Of a DNA stretch of 7,442 nt, positions 2 through 7,055 are shown piece by piece. The stretch is from Elusimicrobiota bacterium (GTDB lineage Bacteria > Elusimicrobiota > Elusimicrobia > UBA1565 > UBA9628). The notes below the pieces were generated by a model. It searched no databases. It worked only from the letters and a program-made list of their open reading frames with translations, and had not been told where the DNA came from. Location of the stretch: the NCBI GenBank assembly GCA_016194625.1, contig JACQBB010000226.1, positions 1 through 7,442 of the forward strand, given 5' to 3'. The translations under genes were made by a program, and so were the position numbers. The first letter of the stretch is position 1. Every line of letters begins with the position of its first letter.

Positions 2-886
2 GCGTGCCTGCACTGCTGCACCGACTCGGCGCCGGGGAAGGCCCTGCCCCACGAGCTGTCGCGCGAGCGCGCGCTGTCCCTGGCCCGCGAGATCGTCGCC
101 GCGGGCGTGCCTTACGCGATGATCGTCGGCGGCGAGCCCACCCTCGTCCCGCACTTCGCCGAGGTGTGCCGCGTCCTGTCCGACGGCGGCGTCCTGCTCA
201 AGATCGAGACCAACGGCATGGCCTTCGACCCGGGCCTTCTGAAGGGCCTGGCGGTGCGCTCGGTGCAGATCTCCCTGGACGGCGCCACCCAGGAGACCTA
301 CGCCCGACAGCGGCCGGGGGGGGACCTCTCCAAGGTCCTCGCCGCCTGCCGCGGGACCGTCGCCGCCGGCCTGCCGCTGGAGGTCACCTTCGCGCCGACC
401 CGCCTCAACATCCATGAGGCGAAGGCCGTCCTGGACCTGGCGGTCTCCGTCGGCGCCTTCCGCTTCAACACCGGCCGGCTGATGCGCTTGGGCACCGCGG
501 CCAAGCTGTGGGACCGTCTGGAGCCGTCGGCGGCCGAGTACGCGGCGTTCCGCGCGATGCTGGAGGCCTCGAAGGCCCCCATCGAGCTTTGCTATCTTCC
601 GTTCTCCATGGAAGAGGAGCTGGCCGGACGCCGCATCGAGCCGTCGGGCACGCTCCTCGTCCTGCCGGACGGCCGCGTGAAGGTCTTCGCGGCCCTGCCG
701 TACACCTGCACCGATCTGACGAAGCATTCTTTCTTGGAGGCGTGGGACGCGTATCGCAAGGCCTGGAGCGATCCGCGCGTCCGCAACGCCCTCGAGCGCC
801 TCTCCGCGGACCCCGGGTACGCGGCGAAGGCGAATCAGTGGGTCCCGCTGGATTCGATGTCTCACGATCTGCCGGTCGTGGTCTGA
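2..886 (+). CDS. Radical SAM peptide-modifying enzyme, 5'-truncated (rSAM1)
   Basis: Partial CDS, open at the window's left edge; first complete codon is at base 2. It is the C-terminal 294 residues of a radical SAM enzyme, which reductively cleaves S-adenosylmethionine at a 4Fe-4S cluster. The last two cysteines of the CxxxCxxC motif are visible (ACLHCC at visible residues 1-6); the first lies just outside. GGEP (residues 43-46), which binds SAM in this family, follows, then LKIETNG and VQISLDGA strands typical of the SPASM/PqqE-like branch. The C-terminal part keeps the SPASM-like outline (LVLPDGRVKV, then SFLEAW) but lacks the usual cysteine set: only two scattered Cys remain, so a full auxiliary cluster is unlikely. 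It is collinear with rSAM2 downstream and clearly a paralogue. With the PqqA-like peptide 19 nt downstream, a role in modifying that peptide is inferred. The stop at 884-886 is clear. Confidence 0.93.
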   Translation, partial: ACLHCCTDSAPGKALPHELSRERALSLAREIVAAGVPYAMIVGGEPTLVPHFAEVCRVLSDGGVLLKIETNGMAFDPGLLKGLAVRSVQISLDGATQETYARQRPGGDLSKVLAACRGTVAAGLPLEVTFAPTRLNIHEAKAVLDLAVSVGAFRFNTGRLMRLGTAAKLWDRLEPSAAEYAAFRAMLEASKAPIELCYLPFSMEEELAGRRIEPSGTLLVLPDGRVKVFAALPYTCTDLTKHSFLEAWDAYRKAWSDPRVRNALERLSADPGYAAKANQWVPLDSMSHDLPVVV

Positions 887-895
887 CCGGCAAAA

Positions 896-900
896 GGGAG
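896..900 (+). promoter_or_regulatory. Shine-Dalgarno of the PqqA-like peptide gene
   Basis: GGGAG preceded by AAAA, five bases before the ATG at 906. It lies inside the only 19-nt gap of the operon. It is the main evidence besides the protein pattern that the 39-codon reading frame is translated. Confidence 0.75.
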
Positions 901-905
901 TAACA

Positions 906-1025
906 ATGAACGACCAGAAGACCGTGACCGATGCCAAGGCCGAGCCGAAGCTCGCTTGGGAGACGCCCTCCATGGAGGAAGTCTCCGAGCGCGTGATGGC
1001 CCAGCCGTACATCCGGTTCACGTGA
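906..1025 (+). CDS. PqqA-like precursor peptide, 39 aa
   Basis: Short ORF between two radical SAM genes, with a good ribosome binding site, ending in TGA that overlaps a possible start of the next gene (TGATG). The product begins MNDQKTVTDAKAEPK, a polar Lys/Glu-rich, leader-like stretch. Then come W18, P21, E24-E25, Y35 and I36, with the C-terminus PYIRFT. Measured from Trp, Pro (+3), an acidic residue (+7), Tyr (+17) and Ile (+18) fall exactly where PqqA has W, P, D, Y and I, with no gap. PqqA's crosslinked Glu (+13) is Met31 here, and this peptide has about 16 extra N-terminal residues. From family knowledge, PqqA-like peptides are substrates of radical SAM enzymes. By inference this is a ribosomally made precursor whose C-terminal region is modified by rSAM1 and/or rSAM2. 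It has no Cys and no Gly-Gly processing site. It could be a chance ORF, but spacing, SD and motif together argue against that. Confidence 0.78.
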   Translation: MNDQKTVTDAKAEPKLAWETPSMEEVSERVMAQPYIRFT

Positions 1026-1987
1026 TGCACCGGAGGGGGGCGTCCGTGGGCGACTACGGCGCCCCCCTCTTTCTTGCCTGGCAGTTGACCAACGATTGCA
1101 CCGGTCGCTGTCTGCACTGCTGCGAGGAGTCAGGCAAGGACTTCGTCTGGAAGGACGAGATGGACCGCGCGCAGTGCCTGTCGCTGGCCCGGCAGATCGT
1201 GGACCTCGGCATCGCGTACGTCGCCTTCGGCGGCGGCGAGCCGATGAGCTCCCCGCACGTGTGGGAGATCTACGACATCCTGTCCAAGGGCGGCGTCGAG
1301 ATCAAGATCGAGACCAACGGCCTCGACCTGGACGACGCGGCCTGCGACCGCCTGAAGGCGATGAACATCGCCTGCGTGCAGATCAGCATCGACGGCGCCG
1401 TCGCGGCCACGCATGAGAAGCTGCGCCCGGGTTCCGGTTATCGCCCCGCCTGGGACGCGCTCGACCGCCTGGTGGCGCGCGGCCTGGAGCCGGAGCTGGT
1501 CTTCATCCCGACCAAGTTCAACGTCAAAGAAGCCGTCGCCGTCTATGAGCAGGCGGCGGCCAAGAAGATCCGCACCTTCGTCACCGGCCCGATGATGCGC
1601 CTGGGCCGCGCCGCCCACGCCTGGGACTCGCTGGCCTGCGCCGACGAGGACTGGTCCGAGGCCGTGATGGGCCTGAAGGCCGCCGCGGCGGCGCTGAAAG
1701 GTCCGCGCCTGGCGGTGTACCCGTGGGGCATCCAGCACGAGATGAAGACGCGCGCCGAGAGCCCGCAGTCGATGGTGCTGGTGGTCCCCAACGGGCGCGC
1801 GAAGCTCCTCAACGCCCTGCCGTTCGCCGTGGCCGACCTCAAGAAGGACTCCCTCGCCTCCGCCTGGCCGAAGGTCGGGGCCGCCTGGAAGTCCCGGGAG
1901 GTCCAGGACTTCGTGCGCCGCGCGCAGACCGAGACCGACCTGCTCAAGCACGCCAACGAGTGCTGGGACCTGTCCGTCTCCGCTTGA
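1025..1987 (+). CDS. Radical SAM peptide-modifying enzyme (rSAM2), paralogue of rSAM1
   Basis: A 320-residue radical SAM enzyme counted from the ATG at 1025, which overlaps the peptide stop by one base (TGATG). C25, C29 and C32 form the CxxxCxxC cluster motif in NDCTGRCLHCC; GGGEP is at 69-73, followed by IKIETNG and VQISIDGA. The C-terminal third keeps the SPASM-like pattern (VLVVPNGRAKLLNALP, then SLASAW) but has none of the closely spaced auxiliary-cluster cysteines. There is no PqqD/RRE-like N-terminal domain, so peptide-leader recognition must come from elsewhere. Start choice: reading upstream to 956 would overlap the whole second half of the peptide gene and is rejected. A GTG at 1046 preceded by GGAGG is a real alternative and would give a 313-residue protein. 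Likely partner of rSAM1 in acting on the 39-aa peptide (inference from context). The substrate bond is unknown. Confidence 0.93.
   Translation: MHRRGASVGDYGAPLFLAWQLTNDCTGRCLHCCEESGKDFVWKDEMDRAQCLSLARQIVDLGIAYVAFGGGEPMSSPHVWEIYDILSKGGVEIKIETNGLDLDDAACDRLKAMNIACVQISIDGAVAATHEKLRPGSGYRPAWDALDRLVARGLEPELVFIPTKFNVKEAVAVYEQAAAKKIRTFVTGPMMRLGRAAHAWDSLACADEDWSEAVMGLKAAAAALKGPRLAVYPWGIQHEMKTRAESPQSMVLVVPNGRAKLLNALPFAVADLKKDSLASAWPKVGAAWKSREVQDFVRRAQTETDLLKHANECWDLSVSA
1032..1075 (+). terminator. Attenuator-like hairpin between precursor peptide and rSAM2
   Basis: Bases 1032-1042 (GGAGGGGGGCG) pair with 1060-1070 (CGCCCCCCTCT), including one terminal G-T wobble. After a bulged T1043, CCGT (1044-1047) pairs with ACGG (1056-1059) around an 8-nt loop. 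The pyrimidine tail TCTTTCTT occupies 1068-1075. This has the form of an intrinsic terminator lying 7 nt past the peptide stop codon and within the first codons of rSAM2. The left arm is also a Shine-Dalgarno-like GGAGG for a possible GTG start at 1046, so folding would hide it. By inference it is a partial terminator or translational gate giving more peptide than enzyme. The tail is not a pure T run and the sequence is coding under the ATG start, so chance is possible. Confidence 0.5.
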
Positions 1988-2018
1988 CGCGGGCTCTTCC
2001 GTTGCGCCGCTCAAAGTC

Positions 2019-3284
2019 ATGAGGGTCCGGGGCCTCGCCGCCGCCGTCCTCGTCGCCGCGGCCGTCGTCACCGGCGGCTGCGCGTCCGACCCGTTCGCGG
2101 TGGCGCAGGAGCGCCCCGCCCCGCGCGTCCTGGTCCGCCAGCACGCCACGCCCGGCTCCAGCCGGGTGATGCGCTGCACCTACGCCGAGGCCTACCGCGC
2201 CGCGGCCCGCGCCTTCGACCGCACGCCTTACTACTCGGTGAAGCGGGAGCGCGCCGCGCTGTACGCCGACGACTTCCACGACCTCGTCTCGGTCGGGGTG
2301 TTCCTGCGCTCGACCGGCGAGGAGGAGCGCACGCGGGTGGAGGTTCTGGCCCTGCGCGCGGACCCCGAGACGGACCCGGGCCTGCGCCGCCGCACCGAGG
2401 CCGGCTACCTCGACGAGATCGAGGGGGAGGTGCGCCTCCTGCGCGGGGAGCCGGCGCCGGCCCGCCCCGCCGCGGCGGCCGTCTCGGCGCGGGGCGCGGC
2501 GACGTCGGCCGTGGACTCGGTCGCGGGGCTGACGGCGCGCTCTCGGCCCGGCGACTGGGCGATCATCGTGGGGGCGGAGCGCCATCAGTGGCTGGGCGAC
2601 TCCGAGTACGCGGGCCGCGACGCCGAGGTGTTCCAGCGCTACGCGGAGACGGTGCTCGGCGTGCCCAAGGCGCACGTGATCGCCCTGCGCGACGCGGACG
2701 CCTCGCGCGAGTCGGTCCTGCGCGCGATCGCGCGGCTGAAGGCCTCCGCGGGCGCCGAGGCGCGCGTGTGGTTCTACTTCGCGGGGCTGGGGGCGTCCGA
2801 CGAGGGCAGCGGCGCGCCCTATCTCATCACCTGGGACGCCAGCCCGCGCTACTGGGTCACGACCACGCTCCCGCTGGCGGAGCTGTACCGCGAGCTGGGA
2901 GGCATCGACGCGGCGCAGATCGTGGCCGTCCTGGACGCGTCCTTCTCCGGCGCCGGCGACCGCTCCTGGTCCGAGTCCGACCACGCGCCCGGCTTCCGCG
3001 AGGTGCGCCCGCAGGCGGCCCTGACGGGCCTCCTCTCGATCCTGTACGCCTCCCAGCCCGGCGAGACGGCGCAGACGCTCGACGAGCAGGGCCACGGGCT
3101 GTTCACCTACCACCTCCTGCGCGGCCTGCGCGGGGAGGCGGCGGGAGGGGGGCGGCGCCTGGACCTGGAGGACCTGGCGCACTTCGTCTACCGCGAGGCC
3201 AGCGCCGACGCCAAGGCCCGCGGCCGCGTCCAGTCCCCGCACCTCGACTCGACCGGCCCGCTGACGCCGGTCTGGTCGGAGTAG
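2019..3284 (+). CDS. Putative lipoprotein with degenerate caspase-like (peptidase C14) domain
   Basis: 421 residues. The N-terminus has a hydrophobic segment (6-18) ending in TGGC with C21 as a possible lipidation site; Thr at -3 makes the lipobox imperfect. Residues about 30-150 form an uncharacterised domain (YAEAYRAAARAFDR onwards), followed by an Ala/Pro-rich linker. From about 175 to 400 the order of strands matches the caspase/C14 fold: WAIIVGAE, then GRDAEVFQRYAE, a PKAHVIALRDADAS stretch, VWFYFAGLG, and VLDASFSG. In active members these last two read YFSGHG and DaCxSG. Here Leu257 replaces the catalytic His and Ser308 replaces the catalytic Cys, so cysteine-protease activity is not expected. 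The gene starts 31 nt after rSAM2 on the same strand without a strong Shine-Dalgarno and may be cotranscribed. A link to the peptide pathway is unproven. It could be a binding or scaffold protein at the membrane. Confidence 0.84.
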   Translation: MRVRGLAAAVLVAAAVVTGGCASDPFAVAQERPAPRVLVRQHATPGSSRVMRCTYAEAYRAAARAFDRTPYYSVKRERAALYADDFHDLVSVGVFLRSTGEEERTRVEVLALRADPETDPGLRRRTEAGYLDEIEGEVRLLRGEPAPARPAAAAVSARGAATSAVDSVAGLTARSRPGDWAIIVGAERHQWLGDSEYAGRDAEVFQRYAETVLGVPKAHVIALRDADASRESVLRAIARLKASAGAEARVWFYFAGLGASDEGSGAPYLITWDASPRYWVTTTLPLAELYRELGGIDAAQIVAVLDASFSGAGDRSWSESDHAPGFREVRPQAALTGLLSILYASQPGETAQTLDEQGHGLFTYHLLRGLRGEAAGGGRRLDLEDLAHFVYREASADAKARGRVQSPHLDSTGPLTPVWSE

Positions 3285-3310
3285 GCCCTCCGGCCCTCCG
3301 GGCCGTGGCC
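3284..3310 (+). terminator. GC hairpin after the caspase-like gene
   Basis: CGGCCC (3291-3296), a TCC loop and GGGCCG (3300-3305) form a perfect 6-bp stem. Flanking GGCC (3284-3287 and 3307-3310) can extend it across a small internal loop. It begins in the stop codon of the upstream gene. There is no T run, so it may only stabilise or slow the transcript. Confidence 0.3.
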
Positions 3311-3343
3311 CGTCCGGCCCAAGCGCTCGCGCGCGCCCACGGC

Positions 3344-3349
3344 TACACT
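3344..3349 (+). promoter_or_regulatory. Possible -10 element of the PPK2 gene (near-leaderless)
   Basis: TACACT eight bases before the ATG at 3358. No recognisable -35 lies at 16-18 bp spacing. The PPK2 gene has no Shine-Dalgarno, so a leaderless or nearly leaderless transcript would fit. The same arrangement is clearer at the DUF4279-like gene. Confidence 0.3.
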
Positions 3350-3357
3350 GTGTTCAG

Positions 3358-4608
3358 ATGAGCAAGGCCCTCGCGACGCTCCTGGCGCTCCTCCTGCTGG
3401 CCGCGCCCGTCCGTTCCCAGGTCGTCTCCGCCGCCGCGTCCGCCCGTTCCCCCGTCGTGCCGGTGGTGCCGCACGGCGCCTACATGAGCGCGCTCGGCAC
3501 GCAGGCCGCGGCGCTGACCCAGGCGGCCGCGCTGACCACGCTCCCGACGGCTTTCTCGCGGACCCTGGCCGCCGCGCCCGCCGCGGCCGCCGCGACGCCC
3601 GAGGCCTTCGCCGCCCGCTCCGCCCTGGTCTCCGCCCTGGCCGCGCCCGCCTCCGCCAAGGCCGTGCCCGCGCTGGCCGCCGCCGTGCGCGAGTCGGGGG
3701 GCAAGCACGCCGACTCCGCCGCCGAGGCCATCGAGGAGCTGGGCAAGGCGATCAAGGACGCCCCGGCCGGCGAGCGCCGCGGCCTGGCCTCCGCCGCGTC
3801 CGCGCTGAACGCGCGCTTCGACGGCGCCTCCGCGGCTCCGGGCGAGTCCATCGATTTCGACGCCATCCCCACCGACGCCGGCGAGCGCTCGGAGAAGAAG
3901 GCGCGCAAGGCGATGAAGAAGGACCGCCGCGAGGTCCTGGACCTGGAGGAAGCCCTGGCGGCCTCCAAGGAGCGCGCGGTTCTGGTCGTCCTTCAGGGCA
4001 TGGACGCCGCGGGCAAGGACGGCGTCATCAAGCGCGCCCTGCGCCTGAACCCGGCGTGGACGAAGGTCGCGTCCTTCAAGAAGCCGACGGAGGAGGAGGC
4101 GAAGGAGGACTTCCTCGCCCGCATCAAGCGCCAGCTCCCGCAGAAGGGCGTCATCGGCGTGTTCAACCGCTCCCACTACGAGGACCTGGTCGTGCCCAAG
4201 GTGTACGGGACCTTCTCGAAGGACGAGGTCGAGTCCCGCTACCGCAAGATCAACGAGTTCGAGAAGGAGCTGGTCGCGCAGGGCGTGCTCATCGTGAAGA
4301 TATTTTTACACGAATCGAAAACAGTGCAGAAGGAGCGCCTGCAGGCCCGTTTGGACCGCCCCGAGAAGCGCTGGAAGTTCTCCATGGCCGACCTGGAGAC
4401 GCGCAAGATGTGGGATCAGTTCCACGCGGCCTATGCCGAGGTCATCGCCCGCACCAGCACCCCCTGGGCGCCGTGGCGCGTGATCGGCGCCGACGACAAG
4501 CCCAACCGCGACGCGAAGGTGGCCCGCATCCTGCGCAAGGCGCTCTCGCGCCTGGGCCTGCGCTTCCCCGACCCGCCCGACACGAAGGGCGTGGTCATCC
4601 CCGACTGA
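3358..4608 (+). CDS. ppk2: PPK2-family polyphosphate kinase with signal peptide and Ala-rich N-terminal extension
   Basis: 416 residues. Residues about 162-416 are a single PPK2 domain, which transfers phosphate between polyphosphate and nucleotides. Seen directly: Walker A QGMDAAGKDG (K220), SFKKPTEEE, Walker B FNRSHYED (269-276), a KIFLHESK strand, the lid region RPEKRWKFSMADLETRKMW, and TSTPWAPW. The usual HDFLWRI reads EDFLARI and PADDKW reads GADDKP, so it is a somewhat divergent member. Nucleotide preference cannot be told from sequence alone. Residues 1-20 look like a Sec signal peptide (Lys3, a Leu/Ala core, then PVRSQ). Residues 21-160 are an Ala-rich, low-complexity extension absent from typical PPK2 proteins. 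Export of a nucleotide kinase is unusual; alternatively the extension is a membrane or envelope tether. No Shine-Dalgarno is visible. The last 12 nt before the neighbour are convergent with the cupin gene. A short AT-rich codon run (4300-4323) interrupts otherwise uniform GC-rich codon use. Confidence 0.9.
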   Translation: MSKALATLLALLLLAAPVRSQVVSAAASARSPVVPVVPHGAYMSALGTQAAALTQAAALTTLPTAFSRTLAAAPAAAAATPEAFAARSALVSALAAPASAKAVPALAAAVRESGGKHADSAAEAIEELGKAIKDAPAGERRGLASAASALNARFDGASAAPGESIDFDAIPTDAGERSEKKARKAMKKDRREVLDLEEALAASKERAVLVVLQGMDAAGKDGVIKRALRLNPAWTKVASFKKPTEEEAKEDFLARIKRQLPQKGVIGVFNRSHYEDLVVPKVYGTFSKDEVESRYRKINEFEKELVAQGVLIVKIFLHESKTVQKERLQARLDRPEKRWKFSMADLETRKMWDQFHAAYAEVIARTSTPWAPWRVIGADDKPNRDAKVARILRKALSRLGLRFPDPPDTKGVVIPD

Positions 4609-4630
4609 CGGGCCGTCGGCTCAGTCCGGG
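4600..4630. terminator. Shared hairpin over the two convergent stop codons
   Basis: CCCGACTGA (4600-4608) pairs with TCAGTCCGGG (4621-4630) with one bulged C. A small GCC/GGC stem sits in the interior. The PPK2 stop (4606-4608) and the cupin stop (4621-4623 complement) are the facing bases of the stem. It could end or protect both transcripts. There is no T tract on either side. Confidence 0.4.
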
Positions 4631-4959
4631 CCGACGATGTCCACCGACACCTCCACCGCCGGGACCGCGCCGCGGTTCTCCAGCCAGTGGCGGGTGTTCC
4701 GGTCCTCGGGCCAGCCCAGGCCGGGTCCGTAATCGGTCGCGACGCCGTCGCGGTGGTCGGTGATGACGCCCGACAGCACGTAGACCAGCCCCGGCCGGCC
4801 CTTGTGGTCGTGCAGCGGCCCGAACACGGCGCCGGGCGCGAAGGTGAACAGGCGCATGCGCAGCTTGCGGCCCGCCATCCCTTCGATCTCCGGCCCCAGG
4901 TCCACGGAGGACAGCAGGCGCGAGGTGACGCCTTGGGTGGGGGGGACTTCTTCGCTCAT
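4621..4959 (-). CDS. Small single-domain cupin protein
   Basis: 112 residues, matching a single cupin-2 barrel. Motif 1 appears as PGAVFGPLHDHKGRPGLVYVLSG with H50 and H52; the Glu that usually follows in this motif is missing (Gly57-Leu58). Motif 2 appears as RNTRHWLENRG with H91. Metal binding by three His is therefore possible, without the fourth ligand. It is probably cytoplasmic, as no signal peptide is present. Cupins of this size range from dioxygenases and isomerases to sensors, so no reaction is assigned. It is the second gene of a minus-strand pair, 13 nt after the DUF4279-like gene, and is preceded by a strong Shine-Dalgarno that fixes the start. Confidence 0.85.
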   Translation of the reverse strand: MSEEVPPTQGVTSRLLSSVDLGPEIEGMAGRKLRMRLFTFAPGAVFGPLHDHKGRPGLVYVLSGVITDHRDGVATDYGPGLGWPEDRNTRHWLENRGAVPAVEVSVDIVGPD

Positions 4960-5496: not shown

Positions 5497-5603
5497 GGCC
5501 GGGAGTCCCGGGGCTGAACCGCGCGGACGCGCCCCCGACTCGTATAAAAAGACTATACCGCCCGGCTCCGCAGTCTATCGCCCCTCTTCCCATCGTCCCA
5601 CAC

Positions 5604-5616
5604 TGGAATAATTCCA
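5604..5616. promoter_or_regulatory. Perfect inverted repeat, possible operator
   Basis: TGGAATAATTCCA: 6-bp arms around a single A. It covers the place where a -35 element would sit for the TATAAT at 5627, a usual position for a repressor or activator site. No cognate regulator is in the window. Confidence 0.35.
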
Positions 5617-5626
5617 ATAACCCCTC

Positions 5627-5632
5627 TATAAT
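5627..5632 (+). promoter_or_regulatory. Consensus -10 box upstream of the cassette-like units
   Basis: TATAAT, an exact match to the sigma70 -10. The -35 region at 17-18 bp (CTGGAAT) is a poor match to TTGACA and lies inside the inverted repeat. The predicted start, near 5639, is about 48 bp before the first unit and could drive its ORF. Confidence 0.5.
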
Positions 5633-5639
5633 CCGAGGA

Positions 5640-5663
5640 AGCACGCTTATCAGTAGTCGTGCT
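5640..5663 (+). other. Leader hairpin
   Basis: AGCACG (5640-5645) and CGTGCT (5658-5663) form a 6-bp stem with a 12-nt loop. It would sit at the very 5' end of a transcript started from the TATAAT box. It has no T tract. Confidence 0.3.
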
Positions 5664-5686
5664 ATACAGGCCAATCCAATCTTAAG

Positions 5687-6524
5687 TTAGGTTGCCTGGA
5701 AAAAGATGAAACTAAAGTGGGGAATCGCGGTAGTGTTCGTAACACTGGGCGCCATCTTTGGCGCAAAGTTCGTTCTTCTGTGGCTCAGCGCTGCCTTTTC
5801 AGAAGCACCCATATCAGTTATTTTTCACCAGCAAGGGAAGTGGCGCGGCTTTCTCGGTCTGGCTTCGGATGTTCAGCTAGCATCCGATTCAGATCCACTG
5901 ATAGCTTTTCATGCCGTAAGTCGCCTATTACACCATTGCGATCAAACGGATGGCATGATCAGGCTAGCCCAGAAGGAGCGGAGGCCGGAAGTTCAGTGGC
6001 GGCTTCTGCAGTCGCTAGGTTCATGCATGGATTCGCGCACGATCCCAATCTATCTCGAAGCTTTACATTCAGATAATCAGGTGGTAGTCGCTGTAGCCGC
6101 GCAAAGTCTCGGTATGCTGAAAGCGAAAGAAGCTATCCCGGAACTTGAACCTCTTGTTGAGCGCTACGAACCGAAAGTTGCGGGGGTGATTGCCTACGCT
6201 TTGAGCCAAATAGGAGAACGGAAGGTGTCCTATCCGTGGGCCGTTAAGGTTCTCTCCCGACCGAAGCCGGACAAAGACATAGGCTCACAGGATTCTCTAA
6301 GTCGTTACTACGCCAGCAAGGTTCTCGAGGAAGTTGGAGACCGCAACGACTTGAGATATCTTGAAATGAACAAAACTCACATGGGACTCAATGTGGAATT
6401 TAAAGAAACTGAGCGGATTCTTAGAAGCCGATCGGCGAAGAATTAAGCAACCTAACCATTCGCTTCTGCCGCCCGCCGCCTCGTTTGGGTGGATAGTTGA
6501 AGCGGCGTCGGCAGAGCGTCTGCG
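5687..6524 (+). mobile_element. Integron-type gene cassette 1 (HEAT-repeat ORF)
   Basis: An 838-bp unit bounded by G^TTAGGTTGC on the left and G^TTAGCGGT on the right, with one ORF starting 19 nt in and an attC-like site at its end. GTTAGGTTGC (5686-5695) is exactly complementary to GCAACCTAAC (6447-6456), the outer left box of its attC. In a circular cassette these two would be the paired R' and R'' boxes, which is a strong architectural argument. Composition is well below the GC of the flanking core genes. No integrase is visible. Confidence 0.75.
5706..6446 (+). CDS. Membrane-anchored HEAT-repeat protein
   Basis: 246 residues. Lys2 and Lys4 precede a hydrophobic segment (about 6-29) that should be an uncleaved anchor or signal sequence. 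Residues about 60-170 show helical HEAT-like repeats: pairs of helices with patterns such as VQWRLLQSLGSCMDSRTIP, VVVAVAAQSLGMLKAKEAIP and VAGVIAYALSQIGE, where the Leu-Gly/Ile-Gly turn recurs at about 33-residue spacing. HEAT repeats mediate protein-protein contacts and have no catalytic role of their own. The C-terminus (about 195-246) is charged. The start follows an in-frame TAG at 5688-5690 formed by the cassette border, with only a weak GGAAAAAG ribosome site. It lies between the unit's left border and its attC, and the stop falls directly before the attC. Codon use is much less GC-rich than in the neighbours, consistent with transfer. Confidence 0.85.
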   Translation: MKLKWGIAVVFVTLGAIFGAKFVLLWLSAAFSEAPISVIFHQQGKWRGFLGLASDVQLASDSDPLIAFHAVSRLLHHCDQTDGMIRLAQKERRPEVQWRLLQSLGSCMDSRTIPIYLEALHSDNQVVVAVAAQSLGMLKAKEAIPELEPLVERYEPKVAGVIAYALSQIGERKVSYPWAVKVLSRPKPDKDIGSQDSLSRYYASKVLEEVGDRNDLRYLEMNKTHMGLNVEFKETERILRSRSAKN

Positions 6525-6530
6525 TTAGCG
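6450..6530 (+). other. attC-like recombination site 1
   Basis: The left box ACCTAAC (6450-6456) fits RYYYAAC; the right box GTTAGCG (6524-6530) nearly fits GTTRRRY. Between them CGCT-CTGCCG-CGCCGC (6461-6479) pairs with 6502-6518. One T (6464/6465) is extrahelical, and a C-C/T internal mismatch sits opposite 6508. Unpaired spacers CATT and TCTGC lie next to the boxes, and a 22-nt loop (6480-6501) closes the fold. Extrahelical bases, an unpaired central spacer and a terminal loop are the hallmarks by which IntI recognises attC in single-stranded form. Confidence 0.75.
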
Positions 6531-7055
6531 GTACTTAGCACATGATAACTATAGCCGCCGTTCTTGTGGCGCTCGCCGCCCCAGCTTTCGCTGGAGGTGA
6601 CTATGTCGCTGGACGGATAACGACTTTTTCAGGAAAGGCTGGGCACTATAAGATGCACTTCGTCCAAACGGCGAAAACGGAGGCGCTCCTCCGCGGATGC
6701 CCCGAATTTGATGTCAGCATCGATTTCAAACGCGTGCCCGCTCTGCCTTTAGGGCAATCATCCAATCCATCGCAAAAACAGACCATTGCCGCAGCTGAGT
6801 ATCTCCAGAAAGCGCAGACAAGCGGACGGGAGATCAATTTCGGATACATGGGATCGGGATTAATCCCAACCGGAAAGACATGCTCATTTTCCAGCTTTGG
6901 CTTAATGTTGATGGACGACAGAGAGAAAGGCAAAGAGAAGACCAAGGAATTTGTCCTCGCGTTTCATGATCAAGTATGACCGCTAACCATTCGATTCTGC
7001 GGACGGCGGCCTCGTTTGGTTGGACTGCGGTAGCCGCCGCCGCTCATCCTCGGCG
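6525..7055 (+). mobile_element. Integron-type gene cassette 2 (small exported protein ORF)
   Basis: A 531-bp unit from G^TTAGCGGT to G^TTGAGA. Its first bases, GTTAGCGGT (6524-6532), are the exact complement of ACCGCTAAC (6979-6987) at the left edge of its own attC, again the relation expected of a once-circular cassette. The ORF begins 17 nt inside, and its stop codon shares its last base with the complementary box, leaving almost no waste sequence. Confidence 0.73.
6542..6979 (+). CDS. Small exported protein of unknown function
   Basis: 145 residues. Residues 1-17 form a signal-peptide-like stretch with a good AFA cleavage site before Gly18, though without the usual positive charge at the N-terminus. 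An in-frame TAG at 6536-6538 rules out a longer start. The mature part (~128 residues) is probably beta-rich (YVAGRITTF, YKMHFVQT, FDVSIDFKRVP) with exactly two cysteines, C53 and C114, which could form a disulfide in the periplasm. The end is Lys/Glu-rich (DDREKGKEKTKEFVLAFHDQV). I do not recognise a family. No Shine-Dalgarno is visible. It is the sole ORF of cassette-like unit 2. Confidence 0.72.
   Translation: MITIAAVLVALAAPAFAGGDYVAGRITTFSGKAGHYKMHFVQTAKTEALLRGCPEFDVSIDFKRVPALPLGQSSNPSQKQTIAAAEYLQKAQTSGREINFGYMGSGLIPTGKTCSFSSFGLMLMDDREKGKEKTKEFVLAFHDQV

Follow-up and report, generated by a model that had tools for sequence, protein, structure and literature searches.

On balance, we read the window analysed here, a stretch of 7,442 nucleotides from an Elusimicrobiota bacterium, as carrying the 3' end of a RiPP operon of the cofactor type that is so far undescribed. 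It would yield a prenylated, membrane-held redox cofactor, which in respiring Elusimicrobiota would plausibly act as the respiratory lipoquinone. The full operon runs from a polyprenyl diphosphate synthase gene, where present, through genes for a PqqD protein, radical SAM enzyme A, a UbiA prenyltransferase and radical SAM enzyme B to a short peptide and radical SAM enzyme C. Only its last part is contained in the window (Table 1); PqqD, enzyme A, UbiA and the synthase fall outside. We found no description of such a radical SAM/UbiA/PqqD/peptide cassette in the open-licence literature searched.

Table 1. Features at the 3' end of the operon within the window
Feature	Position	Strand	Basis
Radical SAM enzyme B, partial	2..886	+	ORF open at left edge; PF04055 51 bits; orthologue 5' of the peptide in relatives
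GGGAG ribosome-binding site of the peptide gene	896..900	+	Sequence; Shine-Dalgarno-like purine stretches ahead of the start in relatives, whose starts were picked partly by these stretches
Precursor peptide, 39 aa, MNDQKTVTDAKAEPKLAWETPSMEEVSERVMAQPYIRFT	906..1025	+	Homologous ORF in 61/64 loci
Conserved leader part WETPSMEEVSER, WxxP...E	957..992	+	W 59/60, P 60/60, E(-16) 58/60, V(-14) 58/60
Near-invariant C-terminal ten residues VMAQPYIRFT	993..1022	+	60-locus alignment, codon differences, database matches
Radical SAM enzyme C	1025..1987	+	CTGRCLHCC motif; PF04055 77.5 bits; SPASM-like C-terminal part without cluster cysteines

The precursor peptide gene

A preliminary description of this DNA had placed a 39-codon gene with a ribosome site between two paralogous radical SAM genes, and this arrangement was confirmed. 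The ORF follows the end of the enzyme B gene after 19 nt, its stop codon overlaps the start of the enzyme C gene by 1 nt (TGATG), and the two enzymes are paralogues with 37% identity. The 5' end of the enzyme B gene lies beyond the window edge, as does the first Cys of its CX3CX2C motif.

The pattern AQPYIRFT-stop was present in 61 of 64 loci, comprising 63 relatives and the window. The three other loci begin 0, 1 and 596 bases ahead of the matched enzyme gene; the last one is a short form (L059) in which the peptide lies further away, and absence there decides nothing. Relatives lacking the ORF and frame breaks within the 39 codons, both raised in the preliminary description, were sought: all relatives with enough upstream DNA had the pattern, by which the 60 alignment rows were also chosen, and frame breaks were not seen among the relatives. 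Across these 60 loci VMAQPYIRFT showed a single change, one Met-to-Thr, and the last ten codons contained 5,610 synonymous versus 54 non-synonymous pairwise differences. Purifying selection was strong in the frame of the peptide, but not in the other two frames. Moreover, a profile of 24 relatives retrieved 2,701 clusters at E<=10 from a collection of 5.8 billion proteins, and VMAQPYIRFT was identical in all 120 matches listed. Pfam and NCBIfam scans of the 24 peptides gave scattered weak matches only (best E 0.011).

The 39-codon ORF is a real gene. As the preliminary description had pointed out, W, P, an acid, Y and I stand at PqqA spacing; the register is right, but the resemblance is statistically weak, as an equally good score was reached by 662 of 5,000 shuffles, and taken alone it would suit an ORF that lies between the radical SAM genes by chance. 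We reject that explanation, to which we give practically no credence, in view of the conserved pattern, the selection in one frame only and the reversed pattern, which as a control had no matches in 247, 300 and 200 genomes. The drift that was expected around conserved W, P and Y lies in the N-terminal half; the last ten residues are nearly fixed. These ten residues are the probable core of the precursor, and the WxxP...E leader is the probable recognition segment for PqqD and the radical SAM enzymes. A near-invariant C-terminus fits a cofactor precursor and not an antimicrobial.

Operon structure and distribution

The six core genes occur in the same order in 48 of the 50 loci with at least 3.5 kb upstream, and in these the peptide gene lies between the genes for enzymes B and C. 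Both radical SAM genes flanking the peptide are part of its locus, as had been proposed. The earlier proposal of an undescribed RiPP locus was right as to its type and its precursor but incomplete, since the operon also includes PqqD, a third radical SAM enzyme, UbiA and often the polyprenyl diphosphate synthase. The cassette genes belong to the Pfam families PF05402 (PqqD), PF01040 (UbiA), PF00348 (polyprenyl synthase) and PF04055 (radical SAM). The PqqD-type RiPP chaperone occupies the corresponding position in 48 of the 50 long loci and is also present in the two short forms, with PF05402 above cut-off in L007, L048 and L056. For each of the 15 gene pairs the Mantel correlation lay at r 0.70-0.89 and was reached by 0 of 200 shuffles, which indicates that the cassette genes share their history. 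In the short forms L056 and L058 only one radical SAM gene is located at the locus; UbiA is retained.

Carriers belong to the Elusimicrobiota and Pseudomonadota and include Betaproteobacteria bacterium GR16-43 and Rhodovibrio sodomensis DSM 9895. For Usitatibacter palustris the likeness is known from UbiA (84% identical) and not from the operon. The synthase gene was present in 31 of the 50 long loci, with record titles that are all Elusimicrobia or unassigned 'bacterium'. Among plasmids, enzyme C retrieved 101 records, each below 60% identity; the five listed stood at 22-33%.

Among the genes conserved with the cassette there was no protease, and no further gene, including any receptor, immunity or exporter gene, was conserved with it across both phyla. 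The downstream caspase-like, PPK2 and DUF4279 genes of the window were rejected as parts of the system, as their clusters are present in 7, 10 and 11 of the 64 loci (window included). The Pfam families of genes neighbouring the cassette, among them an aminotransferase, a sigma factor and a MarR-type regulator, showed no common theme. Directly behind enzyme C, six loci whose titles are Alphaproteobacterial have a RatA-like START-domain gene (PF03364; clustered in six loci, Pfam run on four of them). It is suggestive of a quinone-binding partner, but it occurs on either strand and is not general among the loci.

Radical SAM enzymes and prenyltransferase

Enzymes A, B and C score above the cut-off of PF04055 and hence belong to the radical SAM superfamily; the CX3CX2C cysteines are present in 52/53, 53/57 and 54/54 aligned rows, respectively. 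A conserved set of SPASM auxiliary-cluster cysteines was absent from the aligned A, B and C sequences. For enzyme B of the window the top NCBIfam equivalog reached 71.9 bits versus a cut-off of 265, and the best model for both B and C was the mycofactocin maturase, below cut-off. The predicted fold of enzyme C (pLDDT 89.8) is closest to SkfB and PqqE. Enzyme A scored highest against the NCBIfam model of AhbD, which is a haem b synthase (140.6 of 500 bits); a haem-related role was considered, and no other cassette gene points to haem.

Four cassette UbiA proteins scored 73-85 bits for PF01040 (cut-off 34.2). The motifs NxxxDxxxxxD and DxxQDRLVGK and the residues N81, D85, D91, D209 and D213 are kept in at least 95% of 52 rows, which places the protein in the UbiA family. 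All 52 form one group in the tree (support 100/99) that branches weakly beside MenA-like rows (89/43). With MenA, the DHNA polyprenyltransferase, the cassette enzyme shares the superfamily, the closest curated models and the Asp-rich motifs, the spacing of which we take to be MenA-like. It differs in its own tree group, in its position inside a peptide-maturation operon and in scores below all MenA cut-offs (PRK06080.1-3 at best 107.9 of 264; TIGR00751 72.8, 63.3 and 49.5 of 102), so that it does not fall within the MenA equivalog. To our knowledge, UbiA enzymes act on small molecules and not on peptides.

Comparison with known pathways

A PqqD protein with SPASM-type radical SAM enzymes is the layout of the PQQ and mycofactocin systems. 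With the PQQ system the cassette has in common PqqD, a radical SAM maturase and a short peptide with the PqqA-like register. In contrast, at the position of the PqqA Glu, which PqqE cross-links to Tyr, the peptide has Met (59/60) or Thr (1/60); the Tyr is present. Further differences are UbiA, the VMAQPYIRFT core and the lack of conserved auxiliary-cluster cysteines. PqqE equivalog scores of five cassette enzymes were 36.1, 41.7, 62.4, 73.3 and 94.1 bits versus a cut-off of 381, and neither pqqB nor pqqC was identified among the genes conserved with the cassette. The PqqA model matched none of the 24 peptides, such short profiles being insensitive. Membership in PQQ biosynthesis was rejected on the precursor Glu, the SPASM cysteines and the PqqE score, in agreement with the preliminary description.

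Similarly, the mycofactocin system (MftA/MftB/MftC) has a PqqD-like chaperone, a radical SAM enzyme and, in MftA, a strongly conserved precursor C-terminus like that of the cassette peptide, but the cassette additionally encodes UbiA and two more radical SAM enzymes. Membership was rejected, as the mycofactocin precursor model matched none of the 24 peptides and MftC scores reached at best 138 of 265. The SynChlorMet cassette (ScmD/ScmE/ScmF) likewise combines a pair of radical SAM genes and a PqqD-like protein, and we know of no UbiA in it; it was rejected with best scores of 88.7 of 400 (ScmF), 81.5 of 400 (ScmE) and 21.6 of 100 (ScmD). A precedent for a bacterial quinone beyond the long-known set is the novel methyl-plastoquinone of Nitrospirota, an aerobic lineage; it differs in that it has no peptide origin, its enzymes being homologous to those of the UQ, PQ and MK pathways (cited in PMC13386864). 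Elusimicrobiota are not singled out in this 2026 survey of 26,264 genomes (PMC13386864).

Quinone genes in carrier genomes

In a sample of 60 Elusimicrobiota genomes of unstated completeness, MqnA/D was found in 0 of 29 carriers versus 9 of 31 non-carriers. None of the 28 genomes with the motif had MqnA/D or MenB over cut-off; MenB was above cut-off in 0 of all 60, with below-cut-off MenB-family matches in 49. The complex I family PF00146 was present in 60/60. The haem-copper oxidase family PF00115 occurred in 23 of the 28 motif-bearing genomes; of the five lacking it, one (G109) encodes an enzyme that is MenA-like and above cut-off. Among the 34 genomes with PF00115, 23 had only the cassette and 7 only Mqn, while 4 had neither and 0 both. 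However, five of the 11 non-carrier matches are weak, with scores of 141-199 bits and one of them partial, and could represent the nitric-oxide-reductase type. At E<1e-100 there were 23 carriers, 0 with Mqn, and 6 non-carriers, 3 with Mqn (one weak); the exclusion between cassette and Mqn is softer once the weak matches are dropped.

Three of these six non-carriers (G200, G202 and G242) had neither the cassette nor Mqn. UbiA rows L098 (G221) and L099 (G242) fall together with a MenA-like enzyme, so that genomes with such an enzyme but no MqnA/D or above-cut-off MenB also occur outside the cassette. Sixteen of the 23 carriers with COX1 had, apart from the cassette UbiA, only UbiA matches adjacent to COX1, and these match haem O synthase. 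The quinone reading rests mainly on this UbiA inventory, which is unchanged without the weak COX1 matches. All 16 Pseudomonadota carriers searched had other UbiA-family genes, which makes the cassette product unlikely to be the sole quinone there.

Proposed pathway and alternatives

The near-invariant C-terminus together with the prenyltransferase favours a prenylated cofactor over a generic RiPP product. In the pathway that we propose, the short peptide with its hardly varying last ten residues would be bound at its WxxP...E leader by PqqD, as family knowledge suggests, and presented to enzymes A, B and C. These may act by radical chemistry on the Gln-Pro-Tyr-Ile-Arg-Phe region, with the Tyr as the most likely target and with no need for SPASM clusters. 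The MenA-like UbiA, which the operon encodes, would then prenylate the phenol or quinol so formed; in most Elusimicrobiota loci the polyprenyl chain would probably come from the polyprenyl diphosphate synthase that the operon itself encodes. Peptidases encoded elsewhere would release the membrane-held redox cofactor. In respiring Elusimicrobiota the product would probably be the respiratory lipoquinone, as the tested menaquinone genes are missing and often no UbiA but haem O synthase accompanies that of the cassette. Points against the proposal are the small-molecule substrates of known UbiA enzymes, the single radical SAM gene of the short forms, the absence of a conserved protease, the MenB-family matches below cut-off and the non-carriers with PF00115 and neither system.

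Alternatively, the product could be a soluble cofactor like PQQ or mycofactocin, with UbiA and the prenyl synthase acting elsewhere, for example on an anchor or a partner lipid. The layout of PqqD with SPASM-type radical SAM enzymes and the mycofactocin maturase as best-scoring model of B and C favour this, but UbiA is flanked on both sides by radical SAM genes of the operon in 48 of 50 loci, tracks their divergence and is kept even in the short form, and we consider a soluble product unlikely. Some sources label the cassette UbiA MenA, and its nearest models and weak tree position would allow a variant menaquinone route with this enzyme as MenA and the peptide cofactor separate or part of naphthoquinone synthesis. 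The lack of MqnA/D in carriers and of MenB over cut-off in all 60 genomes speaks against such a route, which moreover does not account for finding UbiA inside a RiPP operon whose peptide is near-invariant; it seems to us quite improbable. A peptide with a prenyltransferase is also the layout of prenylated RiPPs such as ComX, although we know of no ComX or cyanobactin prenyltransferase of the UbiA family. A ComX-like or cyanobactin-like prenylated signal or antimicrobial is very unlikely given a core nearly invariant in two phyla and the absence of receptor, immunity and exporter genes from those conserved in both. For such peptides cyanobactin prenyltransferases provide a precedent (PMC11002830).

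Our preferred reading remains the prenylated, membrane-held cofactor. Tentatively, and with less confidence than in that reading, respiring Elusimicrobiota may use as electron carrier a peptide-derived lipoquinone rather than a chorismate-derived one, and some Pseudomonadota may carry the pathway beside other UbiA-family enzymes. Few redox cofactors have a ribosomal origin; we know of PQQ and mycofactocin, and of none that is prenylated. The cassette is a concrete candidate for a prenylated, ribosomally derived redox cofactor, and the named carrier strains make the question directly testable.

Conservation and distribution of the operon

Scanning genome contigs with an alignment of 19 rows of enzyme C, the radical SAM enzyme following the peptide gene, yielded 63 loci. 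Most belong to Elusimicrobia or unassigned 'bacterium' MAGs; the remaining ones are titled Acidocella, Rhodopila, Acidiphilium, Rhodovibrionaceae, Azospirillaceae, Kiloniellales, Burkholderiales and other Proteobacteria, including GR16-43 (complete chromosome) and Rhodovibrio sodomensis DSM 9895. L042 carries the title Bordetella parapertussis, yet it is a MAG bin and its cassette is otherwise found in environmental Proteobacteria, and this label looks doubtful. Clustering and tblastn revealed an invariable upstream order of PqqD, radical SAM A, UbiA, radical SAM B, peptide and radical SAM C, and 48 of the 50 loci whose upstream DNA reaches 3.5 kb or more contain all six genes in order. In the exceptions, L056 and L058, the cassette has a short form that runs peptide, PqqD, a lone radical SAM gene, UbiA. 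In the 13 loci with shorter upstream DNA the genes that fit are present in order, except in L059, where the peptide was not found in 596 upstream bases, and L055, where the second enzyme's best score is to A. L056, L058, L059 and L103 (genome G230) share the short form, in which the locus has just one radical SAM gene; L059 and L103 start too near the contig end for the peptide to be visible. A polyprenyl diphosphate synthase gene lies 5' of PqqD in 31 of the 50 loci and is missing in the 15 Pseudomonadota loci and in L049, L056, L057 and L058. Representatives match PF00348, PF05402, PF04055 and PF01040 (Pfam).

Locus distances were correlated for each gene pair (r 0.70-0.89, reached by 0 of 200 shuffles), for part of which host kinship alone could account. 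The 52 cassette UbiA rows clustered together, apart from the 22 other UbiA rows compared (100/99 support, with long-branch warnings). The DNA pattern of the peptide end was present in 28 of 247 genomes in the phylum of locus L007, versus 2 of 300 in the order of GR16-43 and 1 of 200 in the order of L029 (centre genomes included), while the reversed pattern gave no match in any of these three sets. The pattern is therefore frequent in one phylum, with only sporadic occurrence in Pseudomonadota. Six loci, all with Alphaproteobacteria titles (L026, L029, L032, L037, L044, L053), have a START-domain gene (PF03364, RatA-like) just 3' of enzyme C on either strand; COQ10, a relative of such proteins, binds quinones.

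Genes of the window and their neighbours

Features of the window
Feature	Position	Family match	Remark
Radical SAM B	2-886	PF04055 (Pfam)	left edge cuts gene
39-codon peptide gene	906-1025	none (Pfam)	
Radical SAM C	1025-1987	PF04055 (Pfam)	
Caspase-like protein	2019-3284	NF047832, 68.3 bits	below cut-off 140
PPK2 polyphosphate kinase	3358-4608	PPK2	Ala-rich N-terminal extension of ~150 residues
Low-G+C stretch	~5500-7000		50-53% G+C vs 64-78% in rest of window
HEAT-repeat protein	5706-6446	HEAT repeat	in low-G+C stretch
ORF	6542-6979	none above cut-off	in low-G+C stretch

B and C share 37% identity, and neither reached an NCBIfam equivalog cut-off, the closest being mycofactocin maturase (71.9 and 99.3 bits, cut-off 265). 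The closest protein to enzyme C is 92% identical and the closest Elusimicrobia-titled locus, L003, 88%. The PPK2 and DUF4279 neighbours also occur in Elusimicrobia-titled loci, which makes Elusimicrobiota the most likely origin of the window. A PPK2-cluster gene lies 3' of the cassette in nine further loci. L016 has a caspase/ankyrin protein (PF00656) directly 3' of enzyme C, with cluster relatives in L019, L020, L021 and L025, so that caspase neighbours are seen in two different layouts. The low-G+C stretch looks like a foreign island.

Peptide and enzymes

The AQPYIRFT-stop pattern was found in 61 of the 64 loci (window counted); in the other three the matched gene is preceded by 0 (L060), 1 (L051) and 596 (L059) bases of the locus. 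VMAQPYIRFT is identical in 60 complete C-termini but for one Met-to-Thr, where the rows were selected by AQPYIRFT-stop and the invariance of these eight residues depends on no eligible locus failing. W is retained in 59 and P in all 60. The peptide is under strong selection: across 55 distinct sequences, the ten C-terminal codons showed 5,610 synonymous versus 54 non-synonymous pairwise codon differences, compared with 188 to 4,693 and 289 to 4,629 in the other two frames. A peptide profile search gave 2,701 clusters at E<=10 from 3,772 candidates, and VMAQPYIRFT ends all 120 clusters listed.

The preliminary description had aligned the peptide with PqqA. In the ungapped placement on Klebsiella PqqA (sequence confirmed) W, P, Y and I indeed coincide and Glu25 stands opposite Asp9; the score, however, was matched by 662 of 5,000 shuffles, and the resemblance would be leader-type at best. 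In PqqA, PqqE cross-links a Glu to Tyr; the matching residue of the peptide is Met31. With Met at this position the product cannot be PQQ made via the PqqE Glu-Tyr route.

CX3CX2C is conserved in A (52/53), B (53/57) and C (54/54). Further cysteines are Cys268 (53/53) and Cys105 (47/53) in A, and Cys138 (55/57), Cys223 (47/57) and Cys262 (50/57) in B; C has an adjacent fourth Cys in 53 of 54 rows and any other in at most 39. No SPASM cysteine set was found in the aligned rows of A, B or C. Structure prediction for C (pLDDT 89.8, pTM 0.88) gave a fold closest to those of the RiPP maturases SkfB (TM 0.72) and PqqE (TM 0.60). UbiA retains NxxxDxxxxxD and DxxQDRLVGK and is closest to MenA models, yet below all MenA cut-offs. 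We infer that A, B and C act on this peptide, and likewise which residues would change; UbiA would prenylate the peptide-derived part. Against such a prenylated cofactor speak the operon's lack of a protease and the short form with its single linked radical SAM gene.

Possible relation to respiratory quinones

MqnA/D was absent from all 16 Pseudomonadota carriers, which have at least two further UbiA-family matches apiece. As UQ occurs in 98% of Pseudomonadota genomes (PMC13386864), the cassette product would be additional there.

For Elusimicrobiota we compared the 28 motif genomes with 32 motif-free ones of 2.6-4.5 Mb from the same 247, the latter chosen by eye for size and not exhaustively (G029, G054 and G081 are among those omitted). 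A profile search identified G230 among the 32 as a short-form carrier whose contig begins just 5' of the enzyme gene, leaving 29 carriers and 31 others. MqnA/D was found in 0 of 29 carriers versus 9 of 31 others, G062 being weak (Fisher p 0.002, kinship ignored). MenB exceeded its cut-off in none of the 60 genomes versus 7 of 14 control genomes; 49 of the 60 have weaker matches, of the kind that crotonase-family relatives would produce. COX1 (PF00115) was present in 23 of 29 carriers versus 11 of 31 others. Of these 34 genomes, 23 have the cassette only, 7 Mqn only, 4 neither and none both (p 6e-5). All 23 carriers match at E<=2.1e-131, whereas five non-carriers (G107, G111, G206, G209, G221) have weak matches only, perhaps of the nitric-oxide-reductase type. 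Restricting the comparison to E<1e-100 leaves 23 carriers without Mqn versus 6 non-carriers, with Mqn in G062 (weak), G171 and G240 and neither system in G200, G202 and G242 (p 0.005; 0.04 leaving out G062).

A UbiA-family enzyme is needed for UQ, MK and PQ. In 18 of the 28 motif genomes no UbiA match was found beyond those of the cassette and adjacent to COX1, and 16 of the 18 are COX1-positive. PF00146 is present in all 60 genomes, with a best match of E<1e-70 in 15 of these 16. Of the COX1-adjacent UbiA proteins 23 were sampled, one of them from G062 and the other 22 from carriers; each matches TIGR01473 (haem O synthase) at E<=1e-20, one with 264 bits against a cut-off of 210. Should a UbiA-family enzyme be required for all isoprenoid quinones, that of the cassette is the only candidate seen in the 16. 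Extra carrier UbiAs were classified where scanned, a G167 fragment and a sub-threshold G229 match lying outside the scan: they are DPPR-synthase-like in G085 and G241, archaeal-lipid-synthase-like for one of two in G211, a haem O synthase fragment in G151 and MenA-like, above cut-off, in G109, which lacks COX1; those of G153, G165 and G192 received no assignment from the scan. UbiA rows L098 (G221), L099 (G242) and L100 (G058) group with the MenA-like L086 (100/100). These three genomes have no cassette, MqnA/D or MenB above cut-off, and their UbiAs possibly belong to another unexplained quinone route.

The cassette product may carry electrons in respiration. Against a role as quinone it can be held that COX1-positive genomes with neither system exist, that MenB and MqnA/D were the sole menaquinone markers, that genome completeness is unstated and that controls were hand-picked. 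Cofactor RiPPs from PqqD and radical SAM enzymes are a known kind; our literature searches found no description of a UbiA-bearing one. If the product is indeed a quinone, it would constitute a new category.
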